Part shown: one piece after another, positions 38,769 through 52,612 of the stretch
Layout: every line of letters begins with the position of its first letter
Position numbering within the stretch: position 1 is the stretch's first letter
Assembly (NCBI GenBank): GCA_027064585.1
Contig: JAMOPI010000028.1
Coordinates: 142,501-206,500 of the forward strand
Length of the DNA stretch: 64,000 bases
DNA from: Candidatus Desulfofervidaceae bacterium
GTDB lineage: Bacteria; Desulfobacterota; Desulfofervidia; Desulfofervidales; Desulfofervidaceae
Direction of reading: 5' to 3'
Notes under the pieces: model-generated
What the model was told of the DNA's origin: nothing
Databases searched by the model: none
Seen by the model: only the letters and a program-made list of their open reading frames with translations
Made by a program: the position numbers and the translations under genes

Positions 38769-39329
38769 ATGCTTGAGGATGTATATAAAGATACAAAAAA
38801 GAGGATGCAAAAGACAATAAAGGTGTTAGAGCACGATCTGCTTAAGATTCGCACTGGGAGAGCTTCGGCCTCTTTAGTAGAAGAAATTGTGGTAGATTAT
38901 TATGGTACATCTACTCCTCTTAACCAATTGGCGTCCATTTCCATTCCTGAGAGTCGTCTGATTGTCATTCAACCGTGGGATCCTTCGGCCTTAGGGGCCA
39001 TTGAAAAGGCCATTTTGAAGTCGGCTGAATTGGGATTGACACCCACGAATGACGGAAAGGTAATTCGCCTTTCCATTCCGCCGTTGACGGAAGAAAGAAG
39101 GAAAGAATTAGTCAAAGTTGTAAGAAAGACAGGTGAGGAAGCTAAGGTTGCAATTAGGCAAATCCGACGCGATGCAAACGAAAGATTGAAGAAGATGAAG
39201 AAAGATAAGGAGATTAGTGAAGATGATTTTCACCGTGGCCAAGAGGAGGTTCAAAAGATCACTGATGATTTTATCAAAAAGGTTGATGAGCTTCTGCATG
39301 AAAAAGAAGAAGAAATTATGAGGTTTTGA
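38769..39329 (+). CDS. frr: Ribosome recycling factor
   Basis: 186 residues, the normal length. [19 protein letters not shown] and [14 protein letters not shown] are family blocks. GGAGG lies 4 bases before GTG 38766 and 9 bases apart counting from its start to ATG 38769; the ATG is preferred. Followed within 2 bases by a universal stress gene. Confidence 0.96.
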
Positions 39330-39331
39330 TT

Positions 39332-39781
39332 ATGGACATTAAAAGTATTTTAGTGCCGGTAGATTTTTCTAAATGTTCTGCTTCGGCTTTAAAATATGCC
39401 CTTTTTCTGGCCGATAAATTTGGAGCATCTGTAGTTGTTCTCCATGTGATCAATAAAAGTCATTTGGCAAGCATTTTACGTATTTCTCCCCTTTCACGAG
39501 ATGAAACTAAAAAACAAATCTGGCTACAGCACAAACAGGAGTTAAAAAAGTTTTTACAGCAAAACGAAGGAACGGATAGGGTAGAAAGTATTATTTGTGA
39601 AGGTCTTCCTTTTCAAGAAATTGCCAAGAAGGCAAAGGAGTTGGCGGTAGATCTCATTGTGATGGGAGGCTATGGTCGTATGGGACAAGAAGATTTAGAA
39701 AGAATCTTTTTTGGAAGTACGGCAGAGAAGGTTATTCGTCTCCTACCTTGCCCTGTTCTGTGTGTGCCAGAAAAGGTATGA
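39332..39781 (+). CDS. Universal stress protein, single domain
   Basis: 149 residues. It starts with the Usp strand ILVPVDFSKCSASAL and has the nucleotide-binding pattern GGYGRMG followed by FFGSTAEKV (G-x2-G then GS), so ATP binding is likely. It follows frr by 2 bases with no good ribosome site, suggesting coupling to the translation operon. Related Usp proteins occur in the cluster just beyond it on the other strand. Confidence 0.88.
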   Translation: MDIKSILVPVDFSKCSASALKYALFLADKFGASVVVLHVINKSHLASILRISPLSRDETKKQIWLQHKQELKKFLQQNEGTDRVESIICEGLPFQEIAKKAKELAVDLIVMGGYGRMGQEDLERIFFGSTAEKVIRLLPCPVLCVPEKV

Positions 39782-39827: not shown

Positions 39828-40571
39828 TTATCTAAATAAGATTACCGTGCCCAACATTTCGGGAATAACCTCCCGACACAAATAGATCAATAGCTCCACA
39901 TTGCCGCTTGCGATAAGAAGGGTATCTATATTAGCAAGTTCTGCCTTAAGGGTATCTAAAACATCTTCCTTTTTCACCACTTTACTTTTTCCTATATCCT
40001 TTGTCTTTTCCGCTGCTAGCTCAAAGTCAGTTATTATGTTTATATCCTTACTTTCAAAGAAGCGCTTAATAAAATCCTTTGTTTTTTCTATAGCAATTGT
40101 CCCATCTAAATATAACAATACCTTTTCTGGGATCTTAAAAGATGTAATCATGGCTAAAGGATAGGGAGATTGATCTATTAAATCGGTATGAAGTGTGCCC
40201 AAATATGGTTTTTGGGAGATTTGGGAATAATGCACACCCGTTACGACTAAATCGTAAGACTCTCGTTTTAGTTGATCTACAACTTCTCCCTTTACACTTC
40301 CAATCTTTACTATAGGGGTAATGGTTACATTTTGACATCTAGGTTCGCTCTCTACCATTCTCTTTATTTCGTTTCCCATCCTTTCAATTTGTTCCTTTTC
40401 CCAATGCTTTCTGGCATAACCCATCCCCCAACGCAATACAAAAGGCAATGTTTGGATAACATGCATAGCATGCACATCTGCCCCCCTTTCCTTACCTAAC
40501 ATACACGCAAATCTGAGGGCATAACTAGATTCCAGACTGTGGTCAATAAGACACAATACCTTTGCTCCCAT
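39828..40571 (-). CDS. Universal stress protein with C-terminal extension
   Basis: 247 residues. The N-terminal Usp domain (1 to about 140) opens with KVLCLIDHSLESSYALRFA. The ATP-binding glycine pattern is degenerate (TGVHYSQISQKP). The second part (about 145-247) has YLDGTIAIEKT and looks like a second, diverged Usp-like half. The start is set by AGGAGG and lies 29 bp inside the upstream PEP-synthase-like gene. Last gene of the 12.7-kb minus-strand cluster. Confidence 0.78.
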   Translation of the reverse strand: MGAKVLCLIDHSLESSYALRFACMLGKERGADVHAMHVIQTLPFVLRWGMGYARKHWEKEQIERMGNEIKRMVESEPRCQNVTITPIVKIGSVKGEVVDQLKRESYDLVVTGVHYSQISQKPYLGTLHTDLIDQSPYPLAMITSFKIPEKVLLYLDGTIAIEKTKDFIKRFFESKDINIITDFELAAEKTKDIGKSKVVKKEDVLDTLKAELANIDTLLIASGNVELLIYLCREVIPEMLGTVILFR

Positions 40572-43134
40572 TTTCTGCCTCCTTTAAAATTTTTTCCAAA
40601 AAATCTTTTTTATAAATCAAGTCGTATTCACCTTTCTTAAAAATATCCGCATAAATAGCGCAAATCTTTTCATTTTCCATAAGCATATCTAACTGGCGGG
40701 TAAAACCCATTAGTCTGCCAAGCATGTCTAGTTTTTCTTCTGTAATTTCTCTAGGATATTTTCTAAACCAAGCGTTTATCAAGTCTGCCTCTCTAATGAC
40801 AGAAAAACCCAAATATTTTAACATCTCTTCAATACATTTTGCCCGTAAACATCGGCGATCAGCACTAGCACCTCCCCCAAAAAAGCGAAAATTAATATAA
40901 TTATTGGCCGTAACATCACTGCAAAAGGAGTCTATTAATGAGTAGTGATAGGCCAATCGTATATTGAAATTTAAATATTCTTTAGAAATTATCGCATAGC
41001 TTGGTTCTCCTAAATTTCCCTCTGCCCCGGTCATACTTCGCATTAAAACGCTCATAAATCCCTGAATGTTTACACCTACCGGTCCGCTCCAACGCACCTT
41101 TGGATGAGCCATTCCCCGCCACAAGGCCCGAAAGGGTATTGAAGTTATCTGTTCAGGTTTTACTACCTTAGCGTCTTTCGCCTCTTCTGCCAGACCACCT
41201 CCCAAATCAATGATGAATACAGGTACAGGTAAAAGAGAAATAAGACGTACTACTCTTACCTTTTTACTAGAGACAGCCTTATCACTTAGGTCAAACATTT
41301 CTCGTATAGAAACTTCGTGAATAAACCTAATTATGTCATGAATAGTTTTACAGTTTTTAGGATGAAAATAAGGGCTCCTGGGGTCTAAAAGTGTTAACGG
41401 CAATATTAAGTCTAAAATTCCTTTTAATTTTTGGGATTTTAAATGTTTAACTACTCTTGTTTTTTCATTCTCTTTAGCTTTCAAGACCTCCTCTACCCTT
41501 CCTTCATAAACCAAACCACTATCTGCATCTATGGTAACAATCTGGCCATTTTTTAATACAGAAGTGGCATTAAGAGTGCTCAATACTGTAGGAATCCCTT
41601 CCTCTCTGGCTACCGTAGCCATGTGTCCACTTGGATTACCTAAGTCGGCAATAAGACCTAAGATCTTAGGAATTACGGCAGCCAATTCAGGCGAGCTGTG
41701 TTTTGCAACCAAAATAACTCCTTCAGGCACTTCGGTAAGAGGCTTATTATCTAACACGAACACAGGACCCGAAATAACTCCTGGACTAACTCCCAACCCT
41801 TTTAAAATTGGTTTTACTTGAGGAACAACCTTCTTTTTGGAAATTCTTACCGTCACATTTAGTGGTCTTGTTTGTAAAATGTAAATTTTACCTTTTTTGT
41901 CTATTGCATATTCTATGTCTTGGGGTTCCTCAAAATGTTTTTCAATAATTAAGGCATATTGTTTTAAGATTTTTATCTCATCTTCTTCTAAGGAAGGTTT
42001 GTCTTGCAAATCCTTAGGCACGTTTTTTTCTTTTATTCCATCCTTTTCTAGGATCAGCATTACTTCTTTATGGGCAATATTACTTTCTATCTTGTCCTCT
42101 GTTCTTGAAACCCAGAAATAATCTGTAGATACCCTACCTTGCACTACATACTCTCCCAGTCCCCAGTTACTGGTAATAATCATTCTTTCTACTTCTGGAT
42201 GTCCAGGATCGCAGGTATAAATCACTCCTGCTGCCTTGGCATCTACCATTTCTAATACCAAAACGGCAATGGGCATCTCTTCATCTTTAATCTTTTTTCG
42301 CAGACGATAAATAATTGCTTGGGGAGTATATTTACTTGCTACTACCTGCTTATAGGCCTCTATAAGGTTATCTTTTCTAACTCCTAGCACAGTTTTAAAT
42401 TGTCCAGCAAAGGAAAAATGGGAATCTTCTCCATAGGCACTACTTCTTACAGCTACTAGTCCTGAAAAGTTAGGTTTATTTTCTAGATCTTTCCATAACT
42501 TTTCTATAATTCCAATCACGTCTTCTGGAATCTTTCCTAACTGAATCAAGGTAATTAATTCTTCACTTATTTTGTTTATCTTATTTAAATCTTCTTCTGT
42601 TATTTGTTTGAGTTTATCCTTAATAATTTCTTTAAGCTGATTATATTCAATAAATTTCTTGTAAGCAGCTGTAGTAATAACAAAACCCTTAGGGACAGGC
42701 AAATTAAGAAAGGAGTATACCTCTCCCAAATGACCTGCTTTTCCCCCTACAAGGCTAGTAAGTTCCCAATTTACTTCTCCAAGAGGCATAGCCAGTTCAA
42801 GATCTTTAGGGACAACTAAAAATCGCCCAGCTGCTTCTCTAATTTTCTTATCCAATTCAATAAAGACGTCATATAGGACGCTATATTTGTTATCTGTAAA
42901 CTCATTTAAATTCTGAATAAGAGAAAAGGTAGTATCCAAAATCTTTATAATTAAGGAATGAATTAATAGTAAATTTAAATAAACGCTGTTTAGTTCTTTT
43001 TGTAATTTGCTAAAAAGATCAAGTAATTCATTATTTGTCAGTAAAAGATTTTTGAAACTGTAATATCTTTGAGTGGGATCAAAAGCAGTTTCTTTTTTCT
43101 TCTTTGCTAAAAACTTTTTTAAAAAATTAAACAT
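40543..43134 (-). CDS. PEP-synthase-like protein, TIM barrel replaced (paralog 2)
   Basis: 863 residues. A helical region (1-120) comes first. A PPDK/PEP-synthase ATP-grasp domain (about 125-425) has AVRSSAYGEDSHFSFAGQ and PQDIEYAIDKKGKIYILQ. The swivelling phosphohistidine domain (about 445-545) keeps the histidine (H504, in NPSGHMATVARE). In normal PEP synthase a PEP/pyruvate-binding barrel would follow. Here about 300 residues of unknown fold follow, with CKTIHDIIRFIHE, IDLGGGLAE and SKEYLNFNIRLAYHY. The start ATG overlaps the stop of the receiver gene by 8 bp. It may carry phosphate from ATP to an unknown acceptor. Alternative: a diverged dikinase with an unrecognised substrate. Confidence 0.75.
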   Translation of the reverse strand: MFNFLKKFLAKKKKETAFDPTQRYYSFKNLLLTNNELLDLFSKLQKELNSVYLNLLLIHSLIIKILDTTFSLIQNLNEFTDNKYSVLYDVFIELDKKIREAAGRFLVVPKDLELAMPLGEVNWELTSLVGGKAGHLGEVYSFLNLPVPKGFVITTAAYKKFIEYNQLKEIIKDKLKQITEEDLNKINKISEELITLIQLGKIPEDVIGIIEKLWKDLENKPNFSGLVAVRSSAYGEDSHFSFAGQFKTVLGVRKDNLIEAYKQVVASKYTPQAIIYRLRKKIKDEEMPIAVLVLEMVDAKAAGVIYTCDPGHPEVERMIITSNWGLGEYVVQGRVSTDYFWVSRTEDKIESNIAHKEVMLILEKDGIKEKNVPKDLQDKPSLEEDEIKILKQYALIIEKHFEEPQDIEYAIDKKGKIYILQTRPLNVTVRISKKKVVPQVKPILKGLGVSPGVISGPVFVLDNKPLTEVPEGVILVAKHSSPELAAVIPKILGLIADLGNPSGHMATVAREEGIPTVLSTLNATSVLKNGQIVTIDADSGLVYEGRVEEVLKAKENEKTRVVKHLKSQKLKGILDLILPLTLLDPRSPYFHPKNCKTIHDIIRFIHEVSIREMFDLSDKAVSSKKVRVVRLISLLPVPVFIIDLGGGLAEEAKDAKVVKPEQITSIPFRALWRGMAHPKVRWSGPVGVNIQGFMSVLMRSMTGAEGNLGEPSYAIISKEYLNFNIRLAYHYSLIDSFCSDVTANNYINFRFFGGGASADRRCLRAKCIEEMLKYLGFSVIREADLINAWFRKYPREITEEKLDMLGRLMGFTRQLDMLMENEKICAIYADIFKKGEYDLIYKKDFLEKILKEAENGSKGIVSY

Positions 43135-43516
43135 CTTTTTGCTTTTGTAATTTTTCTGTGGCTTGGATAATAACATTTCTTAAATCTTCTAAACGAAAAG
43201 GTTTAGCAATAAAGTCAAAGGCACCCTTTTTTAAAGCTTCCTTAGCTGCTTCGCTTGTAGCAAAACCAGTGATAATGATTACTTCAGTGTTTGGGTTTTT
43301 CTTCTTAGCTGCCTCCAGAATTTGGATACCGTCTACATTCTCCATCTTTAAATCGGTTACGACAATATCAAAATCCTTCTCTTCTAGTCTCTGTAGGGCA
43401 GCCACGCTATCTGTATAAGTCTCCACCTCATAGCCCATCTTTTGTAGGGCTACTTTCAATCGATTGCATACAATGGGTTCATCGTCTAATATAAGAATAC
43501 TGATTCCCTCGTCCAC
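43127..43516 (-). CDS. Stand-alone receiver (response regulator) between the PEP-synthase-like genes
   Basis: 129 residues, receiver domain only. Acidic pair in ILILDDEPIV, phosphorylation site about D55 in VVTDLKMENVDG, Thr in ITGFATSEAA and Lys in IAKPF are intact. GTG start chosen because AGGAGG lies 8-13 bases upstream; an upstream in-frame ATG would overlap the previous gene. The 3' end overlaps the next gene by 8 bp. Its partner kinase could be the histidine kinase at 50 kb, or the phosphohistidine domains on either side. Confidence 0.82.
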   Translation of the reverse strand: MDEGISILILDDEPIVCNRLKVALQKMGYEVETYTDSVAALQRLEEKDFDIVVTDLKMENVDGIQILEAAKKKNPNTEVIIITGFATSEAAKEALKKGAFDFIAKPFRLEDLRNVIIQATEKLQKQKDV

Positions 43517-43526
43517 TTTTCTCCTC

Positions 43527-46088
43527 CTAATGCTGTTGCCATTTGTCACTTAAAAACTGCTCAACGTAATAATCTACTGCCTTATCGCTTTTAAGCATTA
43601 CATCTAACTGGCGGGTAAAGCCAATTAGACGGCCAATTTTCTCTAATCGTTCTTGTACATCTTTTTTACTAATCTCTCTAATGCGTCCTACTACTAAATC
43701 TCCTTTAGTTATAACCCTAAAATCATATCTTTCTAAGATTTTCCTAAGAAGTTGGGCTCGTCTTGTTCTACGTGTAATTTCAGTTACACCTCCAACAAAA
43801 CGAAAATAAATGTAATTATCCAACATGTTATCGGTCATGTAAGTATCAACCATGTTAAAATGATAACCTAACCGCAAACTAAGATTTAAGTACTCCTTAG
43901 ATACAACGGCTAAATTGACTCCTAAATACTTAGGCGATCCACTAATTTCTTGGAATGAGGCAGTAATACTAGACATAATGGCCTTAAAGTCTACCGCTAC
44001 TGGTTCTGTCCGCCACACCCCTGGTGCAGAAAGCCCTTTCCAAAGGGCCAACATAGGTTCAGATGTAATTTCCTCTGGGCTAATACTCGTTTTTGCATTT
44101 GCCTCAGGATTAATTCCGCCTCCTAAATCAATGATGACTAAGTCAATTGGGATTCTTGTTTTTAACTTCTTTGCTGGAACATTTTCCCAAATGGTTTTAT
44201 CCATGTGGATATCAATCAATTCGGCCACAGCCTTTTCATGGGCAAAACGCAAAATGTCGTGAAAGGTCTTACATCCTTCAGGCCGAAAGTTTGGAGCACT
44301 GGGATCAGTAAGATTTAGGGGTGATACCCTAGTCAAAATTTGTTTTAATAACCGATATTCACGCGTTTCCTCAAAGGGAGTTTCCTTAAAAAGATAAAAA
44401 TTTAGTAATTCTTTTACAATACCTTCATAAACGACATTTTCCTCTGCATCAACAGTAACTCCCATACCTGTTTTCAGCACTTGTGTAGCTATACCTGTAT
44501 CCACAATTGCTGGCACTCTAAACTCTCTGGCCAAAGAAGCCATATGTCCAGTGGGACTACCAATATCTGTCACAATGGCTGCTACTTTATACATAATCCG
44601 CCCAAAACGGGGTGAAGTTTTGCGGGCAACTAAAACCCCTCCCTGAGGGAAATTGGTAATGTCCTCATCACGCTTTACCACAAAGACCTTACCTGCTCCT
44701 ATTCCTCTTTGAGCAATTACCCCCTTTTTCTCTAAAAGGACACGATACTTATTCCGTAAGACAGAAAGACCTACAGAGATCTCAGCTGGCCCAGTAACGC
44801 CCATTAATGGACGAGCTTGGAGGATATACAAATTGCCTTGCTGATCATAACTCCATTCAATGTCCTGGGGTTTTTTAAAATACCGTTCTATGTTTAAAGC
44901 TACCTCTGCCAATTCAGTGATTTGTTCTTTGAGCAAACAGGATTTTGACGGGGCCTCTGTTTCTCGTAATCCACCTCCTGGCTTGGCCAAAATCATCTTT
45001 TTTTCAGTACTAATCCTTTTTTCTACTATTTCATACGGATATGTCCGAGATACCTTAAATTGATCTAAACTTACACTTCCCTCTACCACTGTTTTACCCA
45101 ACCCCCAGTTGGCATTAATTAACATTATGTTAGCCGAGGGATTAGTAGGATCTATAGTATAGATCACACCGCTTACACTGGCTGGTATCATCTCCACGTA
45201 CAACACGGCCATGGGTATTTCTAAAGGTGAATATCCCTTCTGCTTAGCATATATAATTGCCCTTGGACTAAAAAGACTGGCCAAAACCTTTTTATAAGCA
45301 TTAACAAGTTCATCACTTGGCACATTCAACTCTGTTTCAAACTGGCCGGCAAAAGTATGTTCAGAATCTTCCCCTACTGCACTACTCCTTACGGCAAAAA
45401 ATACATTTTTATGCGTTGCGACCTTATTTACTGCCCTTTCTATTTCGCTTTTAAGATCAGGAGGAAGCTCTCCTTTAAGAAAAAGAGATTGAATTTCTTT
45501 GCTGATTTTTTCGGTACTTTTTTCCCCTTCTTTCTCCCAAGTACTCAAAAAATTTGTAATTTTTTCTGTCAGTTCGTTATAATCTAAAAACCGTTTATAA
45601 GCGGCTGTTGTAATCACAAAACCATTTGGAGTGTTGTATTTTAATTTGTTCCTTATCTCTCCTAAGCGTGCGGCCTTACTGCCCACCACATCGGTCAAAG
45701 ATTCATCTAATTTATCAAGAAGGATAGTTAAGTCTTCAATAAGAACATAAATTTTGCCCTCTATTAATGCCTTTAGGTAAGCATTTATATCCTCAAAGAC
45801 GTCATAGAGTTTGATGTATTTATTGGAACAAATCATGTTTAGGTTATATATAACCTTGTAAACTGTATCTGCTAGTTCATTATAGGAGTTTATAATATAG
45901 GTTTTGTCAAAGATGTAATCTCCACTTAACTTTTCGCCCATATCAGTAACAATCTCTAAAGCACGATTATTATTGTCAAGGAGTTCCCGAAAGCGGGTGA
46001 AAATGCTCCGGAAGGCAATTTCACCCGCTATTCTGGAACTTTTTTTGTTAAATAACTTTTCCTTAAAGTGTCTTAAGAAGGAAAACAT
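43527..46088 (-). CDS. PEP-synthase-like protein, TIM barrel replaced (paralog 1)
   Basis: 853 residues with the same layout as paralog 2: a helical N-terminus (1-125), ATP-grasp (about 130-430; FAVRSSAVGEDSEHTFAGQ, PQDIEWSYDQQGNLYILQ), a phosphohistidine domain with H515 in SPTGHMASLARE, and the same C-terminal region (about 560-853; CKTFHDILRFAHE, IDLGGGINPE, SKEYLNLSLRLGYHF). No PEP/pyruvate barrel. The two proteins are clearly homologous over their full length but well diverged, suggesting an old duplication with separate roles. It starts 9 bp after the membrane-anchored protein gene, with AGGAGG about 14 bases before the ATG. Confidence 0.75.
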   Translation of the reverse strand: MFSFLRHFKEKLFNKKSSRIAGEIAFRSIFTRFRELLDNNNRALEIVTDMGEKLSGDYIFDKTYIINSYNELADTVYKVIYNLNMICSNKYIKLYDVFEDINAYLKALIEGKIYVLIEDLTILLDKLDESLTDVVGSKAARLGEIRNKLKYNTPNGFVITTAAYKRFLDYNELTEKITNFLSTWEKEGEKSTEKISKEIQSLFLKGELPPDLKSEIERAVNKVATHKNVFFAVRSSAVGEDSEHTFAGQFETELNVPSDELVNAYKKVLASLFSPRAIIYAKQKGYSPLEIPMAVLYVEMIPASVSGVIYTIDPTNPSANIMLINANWGLGKTVVEGSVSLDQFKVSRTYPYEIVEKRISTEKKMILAKPGGGLRETEAPSKSCLLKEQITELAEVALNIERYFKKPQDIEWSYDQQGNLYILQARPLMGVTGPAEISVGLSVLRNKYRVLLEKKGVIAQRGIGAGKVFVVKRDEDITNFPQGGVLVARKTSPRFGRIMYKVAAIVTDIGSPTGHMASLAREFRVPAIVDTGIATQVLKTGMGVTVDAEENVVYEGIVKELLNFYLFKETPFEETREYRLLKQILTRVSPLNLTDPSAPNFRPEGCKTFHDILRFAHEKAVAELIDIHMDKTIWENVPAKKLKTRIPIDLVIIDLGGGINPEANAKTSISPEEITSEPMLALWKGLSAPGVWRTEPVAVDFKAIMSSITASFQEISGSPKYLGVNLAVVSKEYLNLSLRLGYHFNMVDTYMTDNMLDNYIYFRFVGGVTEITRRTRRAQLLRKILERYDFRVITKGDLVVGRIREISKKDVQERLEKIGRLIGFTRQLDVMLKSDKAVDYYVEQFLSDKWQQH

Positions 46089-46097
46089 CTAATTCTA

Positions 46098-46877
46098 TCA
46101 ATGGCCTCCTTTAGAACCAAATAAAAACCCCATAAAGAACCCAACAACAATAGCTAATATTACTGCTAGAATACCATAAAGCAAAGAATGTTTAAAGGCT
46201 AGATTACGACAAAAGGCTGGGAAACCAACAAGATCCACATGGAAAAAACTTTCTAAGTGACCTACTAACTGTCCGTTATTAAATCCATATAAATCTACAG
46301 TATATTTCCCTAAAGGTATCTTAGCCGGGACATTAATGGTAGTGGAAAAAGACTTTAATCCGTTATTTACCCCTTCAAAGACTACAGTTTTGGGATGAAT
46401 GCTATACAACTTTTCTTTTTTCTTCAACATCACGAATTGCTTAAAGAGAAAATCCGGTTTATCTCCAGGTACGGTAGATTCAAATTTTATCTTGTCCTTT
46501 AAGGCATCATATCCAATTTCTGCCTTTTTTAACACATCAGGTGAGGCAAGTTTGTCTATATCAGTAGAGGTGGCAATAAGATAGAAATTAGGAGCATTCT
46601 TTACTTTAACCGTGCCTACATTCATCCAGAGGATACCAACCTTCCCCTTGCGTTTAAGGGTTACTTCCTCTCTAGAGCCACATATTTTAATGGCCACATC
46701 CCAATTTTTAGGAACATATCCAAAAATTTTTATCTTTTGCCCTTTAAAAAAGGCATTGATGTGTATCTTGTTAGGTTGAACATGTAAAATTGGTTTCCTT
46801 TCCGCAGCAAAGAGGTGAAAACTAAGACTTAAAACAAGGCTTAAGACAAAACCAATAATAATTCCTTTTTTCATCAT
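46098..46877 (-). CDS. Membrane-anchored extracytoplasmic protein (TIGR02186/Alph_Pro_TM-like)
   Basis: 259 residues. A signal peptide (about 1-24, ending near HLFAAE) is followed by a beta-rich region with two halves and a C-terminal membrane helix (about 232-252, ILAVILAIVVGFFMGFLFG). This layout and the AIKICGSREEVTLKRKGKVG stretch fit the TIGR02186 family, known mainly next to TauE/SafE permeases in alphaproteobacteria. The assignment is from memory of that context. The start codon overlaps the end of the permease gene, so the two are likely made together and may form a complex. Confidence 0.65.
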   Translation of the reverse strand: MMKKGIIIGFVLSLVLSLSFHLFAAERKPILHVQPNKIHINAFFKGQKIKIFGYVPKNWDVAIKICGSREEVTLKRKGKVGILWMNVGTVKVKNAPNFYLIATSTDIDKLASPDVLKKAEIGYDALKDKIKFESTVPGDKPDFLFKQFVMLKKKEKLYSIHPKTVVFEGVNNGLKSFSTTINVPAKIPLGKYTVDLYGFNNGQLVGHLESFFHVDLVGFPAFCRNLAFKHSLLYGILAVILAIVVGFFMGFLFGSKGGH

Positions 46878-47809
46878 TAGTGCCCTCCTTTATATGAGAG
46901 TAAAAGATGCGGTGTAACCAAAAGCCCAACTAACATTTTTACCATTACCAAAAGGACAATACAGGCCAAAAGGAGCTTTAGTTGATCGCCTTTTAGTAAC
47001 TTACATAGGCGTGCACCTATTTGCGCTCCAATGGTAGAACCTAATAGAAGAATTAAAGCGAGAATAAAATCTACCGTATGGTTCATGTAAGACTGCATAA
47101 TGGTGACATTGATGCAAGTAAATAGGATTTGAAACAGGCTGGTTCCTACAACTACATGCATGGGCATCCGCAAAAGATAGACCATGACCGGCACCATGAT
47201 AAAGCCACCACCCACACCCATGATAGCGGCCAGGATACCGACGAAGGTTCCTAGAATTAAAGGTAAAAATAGAGAATGACGTACACCAGATTTAGGAAAG
47301 TCCATTTGCAAAGGCAAACTAGCCAAAAACCGACTAAAACCAGATGGCTTAGTATTTACTTCTACTTCCCTTTGGGGTGCCTTTGCCTTTTTGAGGCTAT
47401 TTAAACTTTCAAAAAACATGTAACCACCGATGCCACCAAGCATAATGACATAGGTAACCTTAATCACAAAGTCAGCGTTACCCAGTGCCCGCAAGATCTG
47501 GATAAATTTTACGCCTACCGTTCCGCCAGTAATACCACCAATAAGAAGAAGCGTGCCCATCTTAAAGTCCACATTGCCTAGTTTGTAGTGGGCATAACAT
47601 CCGGAAGTAGAAGCAGCCACAATCTGGTTGGAATCAGAGGCAGCAGCCACTGTAGGTGGAATTCCAATCATGATTAAAAGTGGGGTCATGAGAAAACCAC
47701 CACCAACTCCAAATAAACCCGATAAAAGACCAACCAATCCACCTAACCCAAACAGTAAAAAAATGTTAATGCTTGTTCCAGCAATGGGTAAATAAAGCCA
47801 CCAACTCAT
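46877..47809 (-). CDS. TSUP (TauE/SafE) family permease 1
   Basis: 310 residues with about eight membrane helices in two homologous halves. Each half has a family signature: GLFGVGGGFLMTPLL near the N-terminus and IMGVGGGFIMVPVMVYL after the middle. A cytoplasmic loop with KKAKAPQREVEV separates them. TSUP proteins move sulfite, sulfonates, thiosulfate or other organic anions; the substrate here is unknown. Start and stop codons overlap the neighbours by one base on both sides, so usp, permease and anchored protein are one translational unit. Confidence 0.88.
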   Translation of the reverse strand: MSWWLYLPIAGTSINIFLLFGLGGLVGLLSGLFGVGGGFLMTPLLIMIGIPPTVAAASDSNQIVAASTSGCYAHYKLGNVDFKMGTLLLIGGITGGTVGVKFIQILRALGNADFVIKVTYVIMLGGIGGYMFFESLNSLKKAKAPQREVEVNTKPSGFSRFLASLPLQMDFPKSGVRHSLFLPLILGTFVGILAAIMGVGGGFIMVPVMVYLLRMPMHVVVGTSLFQILFTCINVTIMQSYMNHTVDFILALILLLGSTIGAQIGARLCKLLKGDQLKLLLACIVLLVMVKMLVGLLVTPHLLLSYKGGH

Positions 47810-48273
47810 TATTTGCCCTCCTTTTGTTTTGTTTTAATTGAAACTTGTGCAAGCTTTCCTTTTCTAACTGGCATCCCCCCTTTCTTTAGTTTTTTATTGA
47901 CTAGAATTACAGACCGCTGCAATTTTTTTTGAAGCTCTTTAATTTGGTTGCTATAAGACTTCCGTTTTTTTTCATCTTCTGCTGACGGTATCACCACAAT
48001 GTCCACTCGGTGTTGCTGGCAGAACTTAAAAACTTCGTCTATAAATTCCCCCTTAGTAAAAAAACATTCAATTTCTAGTCCTCTTGTCTTAGACTTTTCA
48101 ACAAACGGCACAATGAGTCTGAAAATTTCTCTTTGTTTACTCGGACTGGTTTTAGTAAACACAAACAGTATCTGTAATCTAGCATTTAATCTTTCAGCAA
48201 GACCTTGGGCATAGGTTAGCGGTGCAAAAATAGAATCCTGATCGTTAAGGGCTACTAAAATAAATGCCAACAT
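47809..48273 (-). CDS. Universal-stress-like protein, first gene of the sigma-54 operon
   Basis: 154 residues. ATG 48273 is chosen because it gives the Usp start LAFILVALNDQDSIFAPL; the open frame extends 30 codons upstream through the promoter. The nucleotide motif is degenerate (VVIPSAEDEKKRKS), so ATP binding is doubtful. The basic C-terminus (KKLKKGGMPVRKGKL) is unusual. A sigma-54-like promoter ends about 13 bases upstream, giving almost no leader. Confidence 0.7.
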   Translation of the reverse strand: MLAFILVALNDQDSIFAPLTYAQGLAERLNARLQILFVFTKTSPSKQREIFRLIVPFVEKSKTRGLEIECFFTKGEFIDEVFKFCQQHRVDIVVIPSAEDEKKRKSYSNQIKELQKKLQRSVILVNKKLKKGGMPVRKGKLAQVSIKTKQKEGK

Positions 48274-48286
48274 GAAAGAGATAAAT

Positions 48287-48303
48287 TGCAAATTATAGAC
48301 CAA
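48287..48303 (-). promoter_or_regulatory. Sigma-54-type promoter of the usp-tsup-PEP-synthase-like operon
   Basis: The minus-strand sequence TTGGTCTATAATTTGCA has GG and GC exactly 10 bases apart and a good TTTGCA -12 element. The same bases also contain TATAAT, but no -35 box is found at the right distance. A sigma-54-dependent activator gene lies immediately upstream, which supports the call. Confidence 0.6.
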
Positions 48304-48354: not shown

Positions 48355-48402
48355 GTGTTTCAAAAGTGTTTCAATCTTATTTATACCGTTTCATATTAAA
48401 AC
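48355..48402. promoter_or_regulatory. Activator-binding repeats upstream of the sigma-54 promoter
   Basis: Two direct copies of GTGTTTCA (48355-48362 and 48366-48373), 11 bases apart, one helical turn. An imperfect palindrome GTTTCATATTAAAAC follows at 48388-48402. The palindrome and the next 10 bases closely match 52567-52591 in front of the other half of the cluster. They are the natural binding sites for the NtrC-type regulator encoded next door. Confidence 0.55.
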
Positions 48403-48405
48403 AAA

Positions 48406-49758
48406 TTACAATAGCCCATATTTTTTTAATTTGCGCCATAAGGTAGTCCGAGAAAACCCCAAAAGCTTGGCGGCAGCAGTTTTATTATATCCTGTCACTT
48501 CTAATGCCCTTTGGATATGTTGTTTTTCTTGCTCGGCCATAGAAAAAGGGGTGGTTTCTCCTTCTGCCATAATTTCAAACTCTGAAATATCTTGGGGCAA
48601 ATCTTCTATAGTAATTTCGTGGCCCTCTGATAATGCTACTGCTCTCTCTATGATATTTTCTAGTTCTCTTACATTGCCTGGAAAGGGGTATTTTAAAAGA
48701 CACTGTAATGCCTTTTTGCTAATTCCTTTTATCTTTTTACCGAAGAAATCATTGTATTTTTTTAAGAAATATTGAATCAAAAGAGGGATATCTTCCTTTC
48801 TTTCGCGCAAAGGTGGTAAACAAATGGATACAACATTAAGGCGATAAAATAAGTCTTCTCTAAATTTTCCTTCAGCTACAAGCTTGCGTAGATCCTGATT
48901 GGTAGCGGCAATGATCCTGATGTCAAGTTTTATTGGTTGTACTCCCCCAACTCTCATAATCTTTTTTCCCTCTATTGCTCGCAAAAGTTTTACTTGCATA
49001 GAAAGAGGCATTTCTCCTATTTCATCTAGAAATACCGTGCCCTTATTTGCTGCTTCTAGAAGGCCTATTTTGGTACGAAAGGCCCCTGTAAAAGCCCCTT
49101 TTTCGTATCCAAAAAGCTCACTTGCAATAAGTTCTTCAGTAAACGCCCCACAGTTGAAAGGAACAAAAGGATTCTCTCGCCGCTTGCTATAGTAGTGAAT
49201 GGCCCGGGCTACCAATTCTTTGCCTGTTCCTGTTTCCCCGTGGATAAGCACATTACAATCTACCTGCGCAACTTTCATGATTGTGCGATAAATCTTTTGC
49301 ATTTTCAGACTTTTTCCTACCAAGTCTGCAAATGTATATCGGGCGATAGCTTCTTTAAGGCGGCGGTTTTCTTCTTTAAGGCTAATTTTGTCCTCTATTT
49401 TTTTAATAAGGGATTTTAATTCTTCCAGCTTTACAGGTTTGCTTAAATAGTGAAAGGCACCCTTTTTAATGGCCTCTATGGCTGTTTCAATCGAGGCATA
49501 ACCGGTTATAATAATAACTTCTGTATTGGGAGAAAATGCCTTGACCTGCTCTAAGATCTTCATGCCATTTATATCTGGCAATTTCAAGTCTAGTAATACG
49601 ATAGAAAAAGTTTGTTTGGGAAGGATTTCTAAGGCCTCTTTACCCGAATAAAATACAGCTACTTCGTAACCTTCTTTTTCCAAAAAACGAGAAAGGTACT
49701 TGCAGACTACCTTTTCGTCTTCTACAATGGCAATACTAAGTTTTTCGGGCAACATCAT
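48406..49758 (-). CDS. Sigma-54-dependent response regulator (NtrC family)
   Basis: 450 residues. The receiver domain (1-125) has D57 in VLLDLKLPDING. The AAA+ domain (about 145-380) has Walker A GETGTGKE, the sigma-54 contact loop GAFTGA and Walker B LDEIGEMPL. A C-terminal Fis-type helix-turn-helix (about 410-450) reads NKTAAAKLLGFSRTTLWRK. It overlaps the kinase gene by 23 bp, so the two form a pair. Likely activator of the operon that starts at 48.27 kb. Confidence 0.93.
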   Translation of the reverse strand: MMLPEKLSIAIVEDEKVVCKYLSRFLEKEGYEVAVFYSGKEALEILPKQTFSIVLLDLKLPDINGMKILEQVKAFSPNTEVIIITGYASIETAIEAIKKGAFHYLSKPVKLEELKSLIKKIEDKISLKEENRRLKEAIARYTFADLVGKSLKMQKIYRTIMKVAQVDCNVLIHGETGTGKELVARAIHYYSKRRENPFVPFNCGAFTEELIASELFGYEKGAFTGAFRTKIGLLEAANKGTVFLDEIGEMPLSMQVKLLRAIEGKKIMRVGGVQPIKLDIRIIAATNQDLRKLVAEGKFREDLFYRLNVVSICLPPLRERKEDIPLLIQYFLKKYNDFFGKKIKGISKKALQCLLKYPFPGNVRELENIIERAVALSEGHEITIEDLPQDISEFEIMAEGETTPFSMAEQEKQHIQRALEVTGYNKTAAAKLLGFSRTTLWRKLKKYGLL

Positions 49759-51199
49759 GCTTTACCGGCAATAAGATAGTAAAGGTTGTTCCCTTATTAA
49801 GCTCACTTTTAACCTTTATTGTGCCTCCGTGTTGCTTGATAATCCCGTAAGTAACCGCTAATCCTAAACCTGTTCCCTTTTCTTTGGTTGTAAAGAAGGG
49901 CTCAAAAATCCGGGAAAGGTATTCTTTGGGTATGCCCATTCCTGTATCAGATACATCTATTCTTAAATATCCGTCTTCTCCTTGGGCCGTTATTTTTAAT
50001 GATCCACCATGAGGCATGGCCTGAATGGCGTTTTCTATTAAATTGATGAATACCTGTCGTAAGCTGTTCGGATCCCCCTGTAACTTAGGAAGGTTATCAG
50101 GGAGATCTATCTTTAAGCTGATGTTATTCAACTTAATTTGATTTTGAGTTACCTTGATGACATTGTTGATGGTTTCTTTAATATCTACTTCTCCAATCCG
50201 ATATCTTTTGGCCCTTGAGAAATCAAGGAGATTGGCCACAATATCACTTGCCCTTTGAGCTTGCTGGAGGATGTCTTCAATATATTCCCTTTGTTCGGAT
50301 GTAAGCTGGTTACCATATTCTTCTAAGAACATTTCTGCTGTAATATAAATGTTGTTTAAGGGGTTATTGAGTTCATGGGCGATGCCCGCGGTGAATGTGC
50401 CTAAAGAGGCCATTTTCCTTGCTTGAATCAGCTGTTCCTTGCGTAATTCTAGCTCTTGCATCATCCTGTTTAAGGCATCAATCAAAGTACTAATTTCTTC
50501 TAACGATTCTTTTGGTTTAGGGAAAAGGGCAAAATTGCCTTTTACGATTTGTTGGGTTGAATTTTGGATAAAATTTAAGGGTGCAATTACTCTGCGCACA
50601 ATTAGATAAAACAAAAGGCCAATGCTTAGGATTATCACGCAGGTAAAAATAACAGGTATATGCTTCCAGACATTCAGTTCTTTTTGGATCTTTTTTTTTA
50701 CTTGATTATCTATAAGAATGGACGTATTCACAATATCCCGTCCCAATTGGCGCAACTTATTTTCTAAGACTTCTCCTTTGGCTTGCGCGTAATTTTGGTG
50801 ATAAAGATTAGAAAAGAGTTTTTCATATTCTCTTATTTGGGTTGTAAACTGGAGATACGCTTGAAGGCCAATGAGCTTTTTTATTTGCCTTTGATAAGCA
50901 ATTAGATAGGAATTAACCTTCTGTAAATAAACAGAAGCATTGGGATAGCTTTCTTTTTCATGATATAGAAAAAAGTTTTTTTCGTATCTCCTTATTTCAA
51001 GGACATTACTTACAAACTCTTCGCATTTTTGTAAAAAGAGAAAATCGTTTATAATTGTGTTGATATTCCAATAATGTACAAAAACAGCTCCCCAAAGTAA
51101 GATAAAATAAAATCCAAAAATGGCGGCAACCCATCCACGCAAGGATCGCCACCATTTATAAAAATGAGATAATTTCCCTTTCTCTGGTTCCTCTCCCAT
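49736..51199 (-). CDS. Membrane sensor histidine kinase
   Basis: 487 residues. Two membrane helices (about 22-43 and 181-201) enclose a helical periplasmic sensor of about 135 residues, a four-helix-bundle type. A HAMP domain (about 203-255) follows, then HisKA with H275 in GIAHELNNPLNN and the ATPase domain (NLIENAIQAMPHGG, DTGMGIP, KGTGLGLAV). All catalytic motifs are intact. Partner of the NtrC-type regulator. The sensed signal is unknown; the gene lies 34 bp after a TSUP permease. Confidence 0.92.
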   Translation of the reverse strand: MGEEPEKGKLSHFYKWWRSLRGWVAAIFGFYFILLWGAVFVHYWNINTIINDFLFLQKCEEFVSNVLEIRRYEKNFFLYHEKESYPNASVYLQKVNSYLIAYQRQIKKLIGLQAYLQFTTQIREYEKLFSNLYHQNYAQAKGEVLENKLRQLGRDIVNTSILIDNQVKKKIQKELNVWKHIPVIFTCVIILSIGLLFYLIVRRVIAPLNFIQNSTQQIVKGNFALFPKPKESLEEISTLIDALNRMMQELELRKEQLIQARKMASLGTFTAGIAHELNNPLNNIYITAEMFLEEYGNQLTSEQREYIEDILQQAQRASDIVANLLDFSRAKRYRIGEVDIKETINNVIKVTQNQIKLNNISLKIDLPDNLPKLQGDPNSLRQVFINLIENAIQAMPHGGSLKITAQGEDGYLRIDVSDTGMGIPKEYLSRIFEPFFTTKEKGTGLGLAVTYGIIKQHGGTIKVKSELNKGTTFTILLPVKHDVARKT

Positions 51200-51233: not shown

Positions 51234-52235
51234 TTATCCTTTTTCACTTATAATACCTTTAACCAAATACAAGGTGATAATACCTGAAATAGCTAAGGCC
51301 GAGCTAAGTACCACAATTCCAGCAATATGTGCCATCTTTAACTGCTTTAACAATACAGATATAGCCGCCAATAGTAACATAATACCATAAAGAAAGCGAA
51401 TGCCATATCCCCTTACATACTTTACCGCAGAGGCACCAATTTGAGCTCCGATGCAGGCACCTAACAGCAAGATTATTGCCGCAACAAGTTCTATTCTTCC
51501 CTTCATAGAATAAGTAAACCCACCATAGGCACCAGAGATAATGCAACATAACAAGCTAGAGCCTACCGCTACAGCAGTAGGCACACCTACAAGGTAGATA
51601 AATGCAGGCACCAAGGCAAAACCACCACCAACGCCCATGAAACCGGCCATAATACCGATTAAGATACCAATAATGAGAAGAGTCCAAAGAGAGACCCTTA
51701 CTCCACTAGCTTTGAGATAAATCATCGGAGGGATGTTAATGTGTTGAATCTTTGCCGCTAGACCTGGCTTTGAAGGGCTCTTTTTAGATGAAGAGGCCGC
51801 TGCTGGCACCTTTCTTGTAGCTCTATAGTAATCATAGAGAATATAAAGACCTAATAATGCCAATAAGATCATATAAACATACCGAATAACTGGTCCTGCT
51901 AATCCCTTAGCAGCCAGAAACATCACTATCCTTGCGCCGATCTCTACGCCAATCATCATACCAATAGCAACCAATACGCCCAGAGGAATATCCACATTCC
52001 CCAGTTTAGCATGTTTTTTAACCGCAACAATTGATTTCGCATAAATGTGGAGCAGGTCTGTACCGATAGCAAAAGGCATAGGGAAACCAAAGATGTTCAA
52101 AGCTGGTGTAACAATCCATCCGCCTCCCATGCCAAAGAATCCGCCCATAACTCCTACACAAAAACCAATGGCCAAAAGAACAAGCCAATTAAATTCTATC
52201 CCGGCTATAGGGAGGTATAAGTGAAAAAAATCCAT
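51234..52235 (-). CDS. TSUP (TauE/SafE) family permease 2
   Basis: 333 residues, about nine membrane helices. The half-repeat signatures are GGFFGMGGGWIVTPAL and GFMGVGGGFALVPAFIYL. A cytoplasmic loop rich in Ser, Lys and Pro (AASSSKKSPSKPG) lies between the halves. It is clearly diverged from permease 1. It follows the small membrane protein by 17 bp and precedes the kinase. Substrate unknown; sulfur oxyanions are the family's usual cargo. Confidence 0.88.
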   Translation of the reverse strand: MDFFHLYLPIAGIEFNWLVLLAIGFCVGVMGGFFGMGGGWIVTPALNIFGFPMPFAIGTDLLHIYAKSIVAVKKHAKLGNVDIPLGVLVAIGMMIGVEIGARIVMFLAAKGLAGPVIRYVYMILLALLGLYILYDYYRATRKVPAAASSSKKSPSKPGLAAKIQHINIPPMIYLKASGVRVSLWTLLIIGILIGIMAGFMGVGGGFALVPAFIYLVGVPTAVAVGSSLLCCIISGAYGGFTYSMKGRIELVAAIILLLGACIGAQIGASAVKYVRGYGIRFLYGIMLLLAAISVLLKQLKMAHIAGIVVLSSALAISGIITLYLVKGIISEKG

Positions 52236-52252: not shown

Positions 52253-52540
52253 TTATTCTCTATGCTCCATTTTTTCTGCCTTATATCCCAACACCGCCAT
52301 GATCCAGTCTGTGATGTAGGCTAATATGATTCCCATAATTCCCATAATAATAACACAGGCAATAGAATGTAATAACCGGTTGTTATTATAGGTTTCGGCT
52401 AACCATCGTGTAAAAAAGTTTGTCGCTTTACTCACATCTGCCACATGGTGCAACGGTTCTTTTCCTCCTTCTCCTGCTAAAACTGTAGCTGGACACACCA
52501 TCCACATAAAAAAAACAAAGAGCCTTTTTAACCTTCTCAT
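52253..52540 (-). CDS. Small membrane protein before TSUP permease 2
   Basis: 95 residues. ATG 52540 chosen because GGGAGGTGAG lies just upstream and the protein then begins with a signal peptide (RRLKRLFVFFMWMV, cleavage near VLAGEGG). A periplasmic segment of about 30 residues and one membrane helix (about 57-80) follow, with a short charged cytoplasmic tail. Each permease in the cluster therefore has a membrane-anchored partner with an N-terminal signal peptide, though the two partners are unlike in size. No family recognised. Confidence 0.7.
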   Translation of the reverse strand: MRRLKRLFVFFMWMVCPATVLAGEGGKEPLHHVADVSKATNFFTRWLAETYNNNRLLHSIACVIIMGIMGIILAYITDWIMAVLGYKAEKMEHRE

Positions 52541-52566
52541 CTTCTCACCTCCCTTCTTATAATTGT

Positions 52567-52612
52567 GTTTCATTTTGAAACAAATTATAATAGAGACAGG
52601 TGAAGATGTCAA
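52567..52612 (-). promoter_or_regulatory. Consensus sigma-70 promoter with palindromic operator
   Basis: On the minus strand TTGACA (52607-52612), a 17-bp spacer and TATAAT (52584-52589), a perfect consensus promoter. The palindrome GTTTCATTTTGAAAC (52567-52581) begins two bases after the -10 box and covers the expected transcript start. This position suggests repression, probably by the NtrC-type regulator of the same operon or another repressor. Confidence 0.7.

Follow-up and report, generated by a model that had tools for sequence, protein, structure and literature searches.

An 11-gene unit was identified on the minus strand of a 64,000-nucleotide stretch of the genome of the sulfate-reducing Candidatus Desulfofervidaceae bacterium (assembly GCA_027064585.1, contig JAMOPI010000028.1, positions 142,501 to 206,500; hereafter, the window), running from approximately 52612 to 39828 with no change of strand. 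Among its products are a TSUP permease, an anchored extracytoplasmic protein (PF09608/TIGR02186), two proteins termed here barrel-less phosphoenolpyruvate (PEP)-synthase-like (PSL) proteins and a single-domain receiver. The unit is best read as a module for anion transport that carries its own means of control, both transcriptional and post-translational, and in which PSL and the receiver would form an ATP-driven phosphohistidine switch needed for TSUP-mediated oxyanion transport, a proposal to which we assign a probability of about one half. Direct observations cover the genes present and their recurrence, as well as protein domain composition and conserved residues; from these we infer the steps of the mechanism. 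Genomes, contigs and loci are referred to below by handles (e.g., G000, C37, and L034), followed by positions where needed.

PSL proteins lack the PEP barrel and carry a new C-terminal domain

PSL1 and PSL2 each comprise an N-terminal helical domain, an ATP-grasp domain, a swivelling phosphohistidine domain and a C-terminal domain of some 270 residues that replaces the PEP barrel. In PSL1, these correspond to residues 1-118, 133-428 (PPDK_N), 480-550 (including His515), and approximately 572-853, respectively. In Pfam searches, the ATP-grasp domain was recognized as PF01326 (E 1.8e-84 for PSL1 and 4.9e-92 for PSL2) and the swivelling domain as PF00391 (E 2.3e-19 and 1e-17), with no match to the PEP/pyruvate TIM barrel (PF02896) being obtained in either protein at E values up to 0.1. 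The structure model of the C-terminal domain also contains no barrel, while Foldseek matched the front of the PSL model to PEP synthase, rifampin phosphotransferase, and pyruvate phosphate dikinase. A genuine, complete PEP synthase is moreover encoded elsewhere in the same genome (G000:C35:6194). An earlier reading of the window made from the sequence alone (the sequence-only reading) had described the PSLs as barrel-less, a description that these results bear out; the PSLs are not ordinary PEP synthases.

The C-terminal domain, which is 38% identical between PSL2 and PSL1, gave no match in Pfam or NCBIfam. Comparison of its profile with the PDB returned only a chance match (E 0.065), and a Foldseek search with an AlphaFold model (pLDDT 83, pTM 0.70, built from only 26 sequences) yielded nothing under E 0.04, the weak arginine-kinase-like matches not being significant. 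A search with the N-terminal helical domain returned only coiled-coil and helical-bundle noise.

The residues required for histidine phosphorylation, a capacity that the sequence-only reading had proposed, are kept in the PSLs. K138, R234, E411, Q424, and R426 are invariant in 26/26 aligned PSLs, as is His515. In a larger alignment of 222 PSLs, the ATP-grasp K/R/D/E/Q/R residues are kept in 206-213 sequences and the catalytic His515 in 217, while H610, D611, H617, H743, R777, and D829 of the C-terminal domain are kept in 220-222. Constraint on the site in the C-terminal domain therefore equals or exceeds that on the active-site histidine.

Degenerate paralogues were also found. Six PSLs (L121, L130, L147, L149, L241, and L249) have lost most of the ATP-grasp residues and kept the histidine and the C-terminal site, and their operons also hold intact PSLs. 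In four others (L245, L246, L247, and L252), both the ATP site and the histidine have been lost, with the C-terminal site again kept. Such retention of the C-terminal site in PSLs without an ATP site or histidine is as expected of regulatory partners. The pattern of residue loss suggests that the C-terminal domain may be the functional output and, by analogy with pseudokinase-kinase pairs, that PSLs may be able to act in sets. Some of the latter four loci include flagellar genes near the PSL, and a second PSL and a kinase/receiver pair are also in the vicinity.

The genome containing the window encodes a third PSL (L034; G000 contig C37, 12086-19721), in the order TSUP - 235-residue anchored protein - TSUP fragment - PSL - kinase - receiver; genes for a CBS protein and for one more TSUP lie close to this cluster. 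Proteins of approximately 370-430 residues that share only the N-terminal helical domain of PSL, joined to a remainder of unknown type, also occur in PSL clusters (L039:5661-6767, L037:10147-11433, and L140:661-1920).

PSL genes recur with receiver and TSUP genes

The whole 11-gene order is repeated in a sister genome of the same genus (L035, Candidatus Desulfofervidaceae), with the proteins being 66-94% identical. Beyond the genus, the order kinase - NtrC - usp - TSUP - TIGR02186 - PSL - receiver - usp recurs among 80 named PSL1-type loci, a set found with a closer alignment subset and biased to the PSL1 type. When one PSL locus was considered per genome in 60 Desulfobacterota genomes, TSUP was present at 36 loci, a receiver at 45 and a histidine kinase at 45, as compared to 0, 1, and 2, respectively, of 12 genuine PEP synthase loci. 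The gene-order and co-occurrence search proposed in the sequence-only reading thus supports the association, and the prospect raised there, namely, that these proteins occur mostly apart from TSUP and receiver genes or are ordinary dikinases, was not borne out.

Among 239 PSL genes, a count that includes some redundant loci and paralogues, the direct neighbor is a receiver in 131 cases, TIGR02186 in 74 and a kinase in 16; within 6 kb, a receiver is found at 208, a kinase at 167 and TSUP at 155. No PSL-receiver or PSL-kinase fusion was seen in the 239 PSLs. In loci without TIGR02186, another anchored protein of approximately 234 residues often lies between TSUP and PSL. Literature searches for TIGR02186 returned nothing. 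CBS, DASS-transporter, and phosphatase genes also recur around PSL.

Cytidylate-kinase-like proteins (PF13189) recur in PSL-TSUP clusters, at 12 loci (e.g., L140:11724-12560 and L039:2931-4442). In Desulfovibrio-type loci, calcineurin-like phosphatase genes adjoin PSL (L241:5141-5866 and L130:16774-17466) and could encode an opposing phosphatase. An apparent pseudogene, namely, a TSUP-like fragment with in-frame stops, was noted at G000:C20:63177-63545 (L007). A search for plasmid carriage gave no match.

The receivers were examined for their phosphorylation sites and relatedness. The acid pair (DD), the acceptor D, the T/S and the K are kept in 122/122 receivers (121 PSL-adjacent and that of the window), and in a tree of receivers those adjacent to PSL group together (24 state changes, as compared to at least 67 in shuffles). 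Because the acceptor site is kept and the receivers cluster, the PSL-adjacent receiver is predicted to be phosphorylation-competent and a long-term companion of PSL. Direct phosphotransfer from PSL to the receiver is plausible; charging of the receiver by PSL and by the kinase are equally possible.

PSL tracks dissimilatory sulfite reductase

Of 297 Desulfobacterota genomes, 107 encode PSL. The dsrA gene was detected above the curated cut-off in 105 of these 107 and in 39 of the 190 PSL-free genomes (Fisher p 3e-44), while in the phylum of a Thermodesulfovibrio genome (G306) the corresponding numbers were 37/41 and 33/107 (p 3e-11), both p-values being inflated by shared ancestry; the pattern nonetheless recurs in separate phyla. 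Two more PSL genomes of the latter phylum carry dsrA fragments, and among further PSL genomes, mostly labelled as other phyla, dsrA scored over the cut-off in 13/15. The dsrD gene, considered as a sharper marker than dsrA, was rejected, as several PSL-rich genomes (e.g., family f8) are without it.

A related Desulfovibrio cluster and other known systems

The literature searched appears to contain no description of the PSL family, its new domain, its pairing with receivers, its correlation with dsrA or its dead paralogues. The component parts are already known, and a phenotype is on record for a cousin cluster; for the operon itself, no characterized function was found in the literature. The remark in the sequence-only reading that no described system with this set was known accordingly stands for the function of the operon and not for the cousin, a combination of TSUP, kinase, receiver, and PSL genes known genetically as the "nitrate cluster," or for the sigma-54 regulome operon DVU2957-DVU2967 (PMC4641369).

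Korte et al. (2014; PMC4001038) described this poorly annotated cluster in Desulfovibrio vulgaris (DVU0251–DVU0245) and D. alaskensis (Dde_0598-Dde_0605). It encodes a TSUP (DVU0251), a hypothetical protein, a PtxB-like protein, a kinase, a receiver (DVU0247), a PPDK_N/PEP-utilizer protein (DVU0246), and a phosphatase. With insertions in DVU0251, DVU0250, DVU0247, or the PSL-type DVU0246, growth was unchanged by 100 mM nitrate; the kinase gene DVU0248 was already a pseudogene in the D. vulgaris strain (PMC4001038). The authors, to whom the function of the cluster was unknown, read this resistance as loss of anion entry, possibly via a leaky thiosulfate transporter (PMC4001038). The anion export put forward in the sequence-only reading hence remains unsupported, with the genetics of the cousin suggesting, by analogy, that transport would be inward.

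Locus L238 reproduces the gene order of the nitrate cluster, and its PSL carries the C-terminal domain (E 8e-80). Given this order and the shared insertion phenotype, the permease, receiver, and PSL-type protein thus belong to one genetic pathway in the related module. As in the window operon, a TSUP, a histidine kinase, a CheY-like receiver, and a protein with PPDK_N and PEP-utilizer domains are found together. The nitrate cluster differs in having its own phosphonate-type periplasmic binding protein and dual-specificity phosphatase (a PtxB-like PF12974 protein and such a phosphatase are present in L238 and were absent from the window operon in Pfam searches), and in being without TIGR02186, Usp, NtrC, and a second PSL, all of which the window operon has.

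A second candidate relative is the D. vulgaris operon DVU2957-DVU2967, which includes the TSUP DVU2958 and belongs to the sigma-54 regulome, with the activator DVU2956 binding upstream of DVU2957 (PMC4641369, PMC5840216) and also affecting biofilm (PMC8586430). It resembles the window operon as a TSUP operon under a sigma-54 activator and differs in its regulators. The order in L241, usp-TSUP-TIGR02186-PSL-receiver-PSL-PSL, is comparable to that of the window operon.

With PEP synthase (EC 2.7.9.2; PDB 2ols and 8a8e), PSL shares the ATP-grasp and swivelling phosphohistidine domains at approximately 30% identity, with the catalytic residues kept; it differs in being without the PEP/pyruvate TIM barrel and in having the extra N-terminal helical and new C-terminal domains. 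Rifampin phosphotransferase (PDB 5hv1) is likewise a PEP-synthase-type enzyme with another domain instead of the barrel. Its substrate domain, however, lies between the ATP and His domains, whereas that of PSL is C-terminal and unrelated by search. The PSLs present the order helical - ATP - His - new domain and not ATP - substrate - His, and they score 227-239 bits against the rifampin phosphotransferase NCBIfam equivalog, short of its cut-off of 999. In a comparison by description, phenylphosphate synthase has PEP-synthase-like N-terminal and His parts and no PEP barrel, and differs in its separate subunits, its aromatic substrate and its lack of TSUP and receiver. CBS proteins near some PSLs add to this likeness.

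Layout and probable transcriptional control of the operon

The sequence-only reading had placed seven genes in the operon, from the first usp to the last, on one strand with overlaps or gaps of about 10 bases. The open reading frame list and Pfam matches confirmed these genes, all on the minus strand, together with their spacing; four further genes upstream had been left out, namely, those for the histidine kinase and the NtrC-type regulator, for another TSUP permease and for a small membrane protein (Table 1).

Table 1. Genes and sequence elements of the PSL operon, in order of transcription.
Feature	Positions	Strand	Basis
Small membrane protein, first gene of unit	52253..52612	-	Homologue L035:1947-2246, 73%; real start probably inside
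Second TSUP permease (TauE/SafE, PF01925)	51234..52235	-	Pfam E 1.3e-44
Membrane histidine kinase (HAMP-HisKA-HATPase)	49736..51199	-	Pfam; 22-nt overlap with NtrC-type regulator
NtrC-type sigma-54 activator, receiver domain, intact GAFTGA	48406..49758	-	Pfam Sigma54_activat PF00158 E 1.3e-71
Two direct repeats TTGAAACAC, 11 nt apart, possible activator-binding sites	48355..48374	-	Sequence; identical in sister genome
Sigma-54-like promoter TTGGTCTATAATTTGCA (GG-N10-GC)	48287..48303	-	Sequence; identical in sister genome
Usp-like protein 1	47809..48273	-	Likely start ATG 48273; recognized by relatives in same position
TSUP permease (TauE/SafE, PF01925)	46877..47809	-	Pfam E 9.3e-51
Signal peptide, extracytoplasmic domain and C-terminal membrane anchor, PF09608/TIGR02186 (Alph_Pro_TM)	46098..46877	-	Pfam E 7.9e-54
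PSL1	43527..46088	-	Pfam, conserved residues, structure models
Single-domain receiver (CheY-like), phospho-acceptor site intact	43127..43516	-	Pfam E 6.9e-31; residues
PSL2, architecture as PSL1	40543..43134	-	Pfam E 4.9e-92 and 1e-17; longest frame from 43176
Usp protein 2, N-terminal Usp domain and ~100 extra residues	39828..40571	-	Pfam E 8.5e-11

The two TSUP permeases scored 173 and 153 bits against PF01925 (gathering score 32.6). The anchored protein passed the gathering score of PF09608 (183 bits vs. 24.5) and failed the NCBIfam cut-off for TIGR02186 (105 bits vs. 255). Usp-like protein 1 gave no Pfam match of its own in the search of window proteins. Small proteins resembling the first gene product precede TSUP in other PSL loci. 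As to start codons, that of the receiver is most likely GTG 43516, positioned behind AGGAGG and 10 nt past the PSL1 stop, while that of PSL2 is most likely ATG 43134, giving an 8-nt overlap with the receiver, as in the sister genome. For Usp-like protein 1, ATG 48273 is likelier than TTG 48303, the latter being disfavored because it overlaps the sigma-54-like -24/-12 element (48303-48287). Another Usp gene (window 39326-39781, plus strand) overlaps the end of the ribosome recycling factor gene and faces the last usp of the operon.

The TTGGTCTATAATTTGCA element at 48303 lies approximately 50 nt downstream of the two TTGAAACAC repeats, as in the sister genome, and rpoN was found in the genome containing the window. 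In a position-restricted test, sigma-54-type elements scoring at least 11 preceded the same genes in 13/48 loci, as compared to approximately 1% of random windows; the element of the window itself scores 9 of 13 on that scale, below those counted. A window-wide pattern search for sigma-54 sites performed no better than chance. Control of the module most likely falls to the kinase/NtrC pair. Elsewhere, sigma-54 activators of approximately 860-870 residues, with an N-terminal part of some 500 residues without a Pfam match, lie next to PSL (L240:12106-14730 and L049:10915-13503).

Proposed mechanism and alternatives

In the mechanism favored here, the histidine kinase and NtrC-type regulator would sense an extracytoplasmic or redox signal and turn on sigma-54 transcription of usp-TSUP-TIGR02186-PSL-receiver-PSL-usp. 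TSUP and the anchored TIGR02186 protein would then transport an oxyanion of sulfur (sulfate, sulfite, or thiosulfate) tied to dissimilatory sulfite reduction. PEP synthase presents its phosphoryl group to pyruvate; PSL, by contrast, would charge its own swivelling histidine from ATP and offer the phosphoryl group to the new C-terminal domain. Whether PSL is charged or not would, jointly with the small receiver, set the switch that transporter activity requires, with the receiver either being phosphorylated by PSL or being charged by the kinase and then steering PSL.

Several observations count against this interpretation. TSUP is missing within 6 kb of 84/239 PSL genes, in part because contigs end. 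Some dsrA-bearing genomes, including two of the family to which the window belongs (G002 and G003), are without PSL, which is therefore not essential for sulfite reduction. For every PSL, the activity is a predicted one. DVU0246 is known as a PSL only by annotated domains and gene order and, at an annotated 744 residues, is shorter than most PSLs. Finally, the genetics of the cousin separate neither control of transporter activity from control of expression, nor either of these from polar insertion effects.

A broader version of the favored mechanism, offered tentatively and with the odds against it, is that PSLs represent a new class of signaling phosphotransferase, in which the phosphoryl group of the ATP-charged histidine would be handed to a dedicated receiver and/or sensed by the new C-terminal domain so as to gate a sulfur-oxyanion permease. 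Such a system would be an ATP-fed counterpart of the phosphotransferase system, controlling anion entry in sulfite-reductase-bearing bacteria, with the dead paralogues as regulatory partners.

Among the alternatives, the foremost, although itself unlikely, is that PSL is a small-molecule dikinase in the manner of rifampin phosphotransferase or phenylphosphate synthase, with the C-terminal domain binding a compound imported by the permease that PSL phosphorylates so as to trap or activate it. The presence of rifampin phosphotransferase among the fold neighbors, the resemblance of the invariant H610, D611, H617, H743, R777, and D829 to a catalytic or ligand site and the phosphatase genes (PF00149 or dual-specificity type) adjoining some PSLs are consistent with this. 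Yet the C-terminal site is kept in paralogues with neither ATP site nor histidine, a fixed pairing with a receiver is unexpected of a catabolic kinase, and PSL tracks dsrA and no carbon pathway. Moreover, cells that have lost the PSL-type gene escape inhibition by nitrate, an anion that cannot be a cargo for phosphorylation (PMC4001038).

Next in rank, and doubtful, is a strict form of the relay put forward in the sequence-only reading, in which PSL would use ATP to phosphorylate its own histidine and then pass the group directly to the aspartate of the adjoining receiver, taking the place of a histidine kinase. A receiver with an invariably intact acceptor site is the commonest immediate neighbor of PSL, the PSL-adjacent receivers cluster on the tree, and the D. 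vulgaris receiver still matters even though the kinase of its cluster is a pseudogene (PMC4001038). Against this, the histidine kinases found within 6 kb of 167/239 PSLs could charge the receiver, PSL paralogues without the histidine persist and the conserved C-terminal site would be left with no role. Also, no PEP-synthase-type enzyme is known to phosphorylate a receiver.

It is improbable that the genes merely share a sigma-54 stress regulon, with PSL and the receiver having no functional link to the permease. The modules are indeed sigma-54 linked, and PSL surroundings vary, with many modules holding a CBS protein, kinase-like protein, or DASS transporter instead; still, the transporter content persists across phyla and insertions in the permease, receiver, and PSL-type genes of the cousin share one specific phenotype (PMC4001038). 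That the PSLs are ordinary, diverged PEP synthases of carbon metabolism, present by chance in a stress operon, is scarcely credible and was rejected: NCBIfam PEP synthase models do match the first two domains, but at 357-358 bits vs. a cut-off of 598, the barrel is missing, the neighbors differ and the separate, complete enzyme of this genome has relatives without TSUP neighbors.

The PSLs make up a large family whose C-terminal domain is unannotated and whose occurrence, in two phyla, is almost wholly confined to genomes with dissimilatory sulfite reductase. Gene order ties this family to a Desulfovibrio cluster whose loss confers resistance to nitrate; nitrate is the principal agent for combating souring in oil fields. 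If the phosphohistidine switch proposed here is correct, it would account for the contribution of a PEP-synthase-like gene and a solitary receiver to nitrate sensitivity, and would show a way in which sulfate reducers may govern anion entry, the step with which their respiration begins. The PSL module would, as such, represent a new phosphohistidine system, the steps of which are directly testable.

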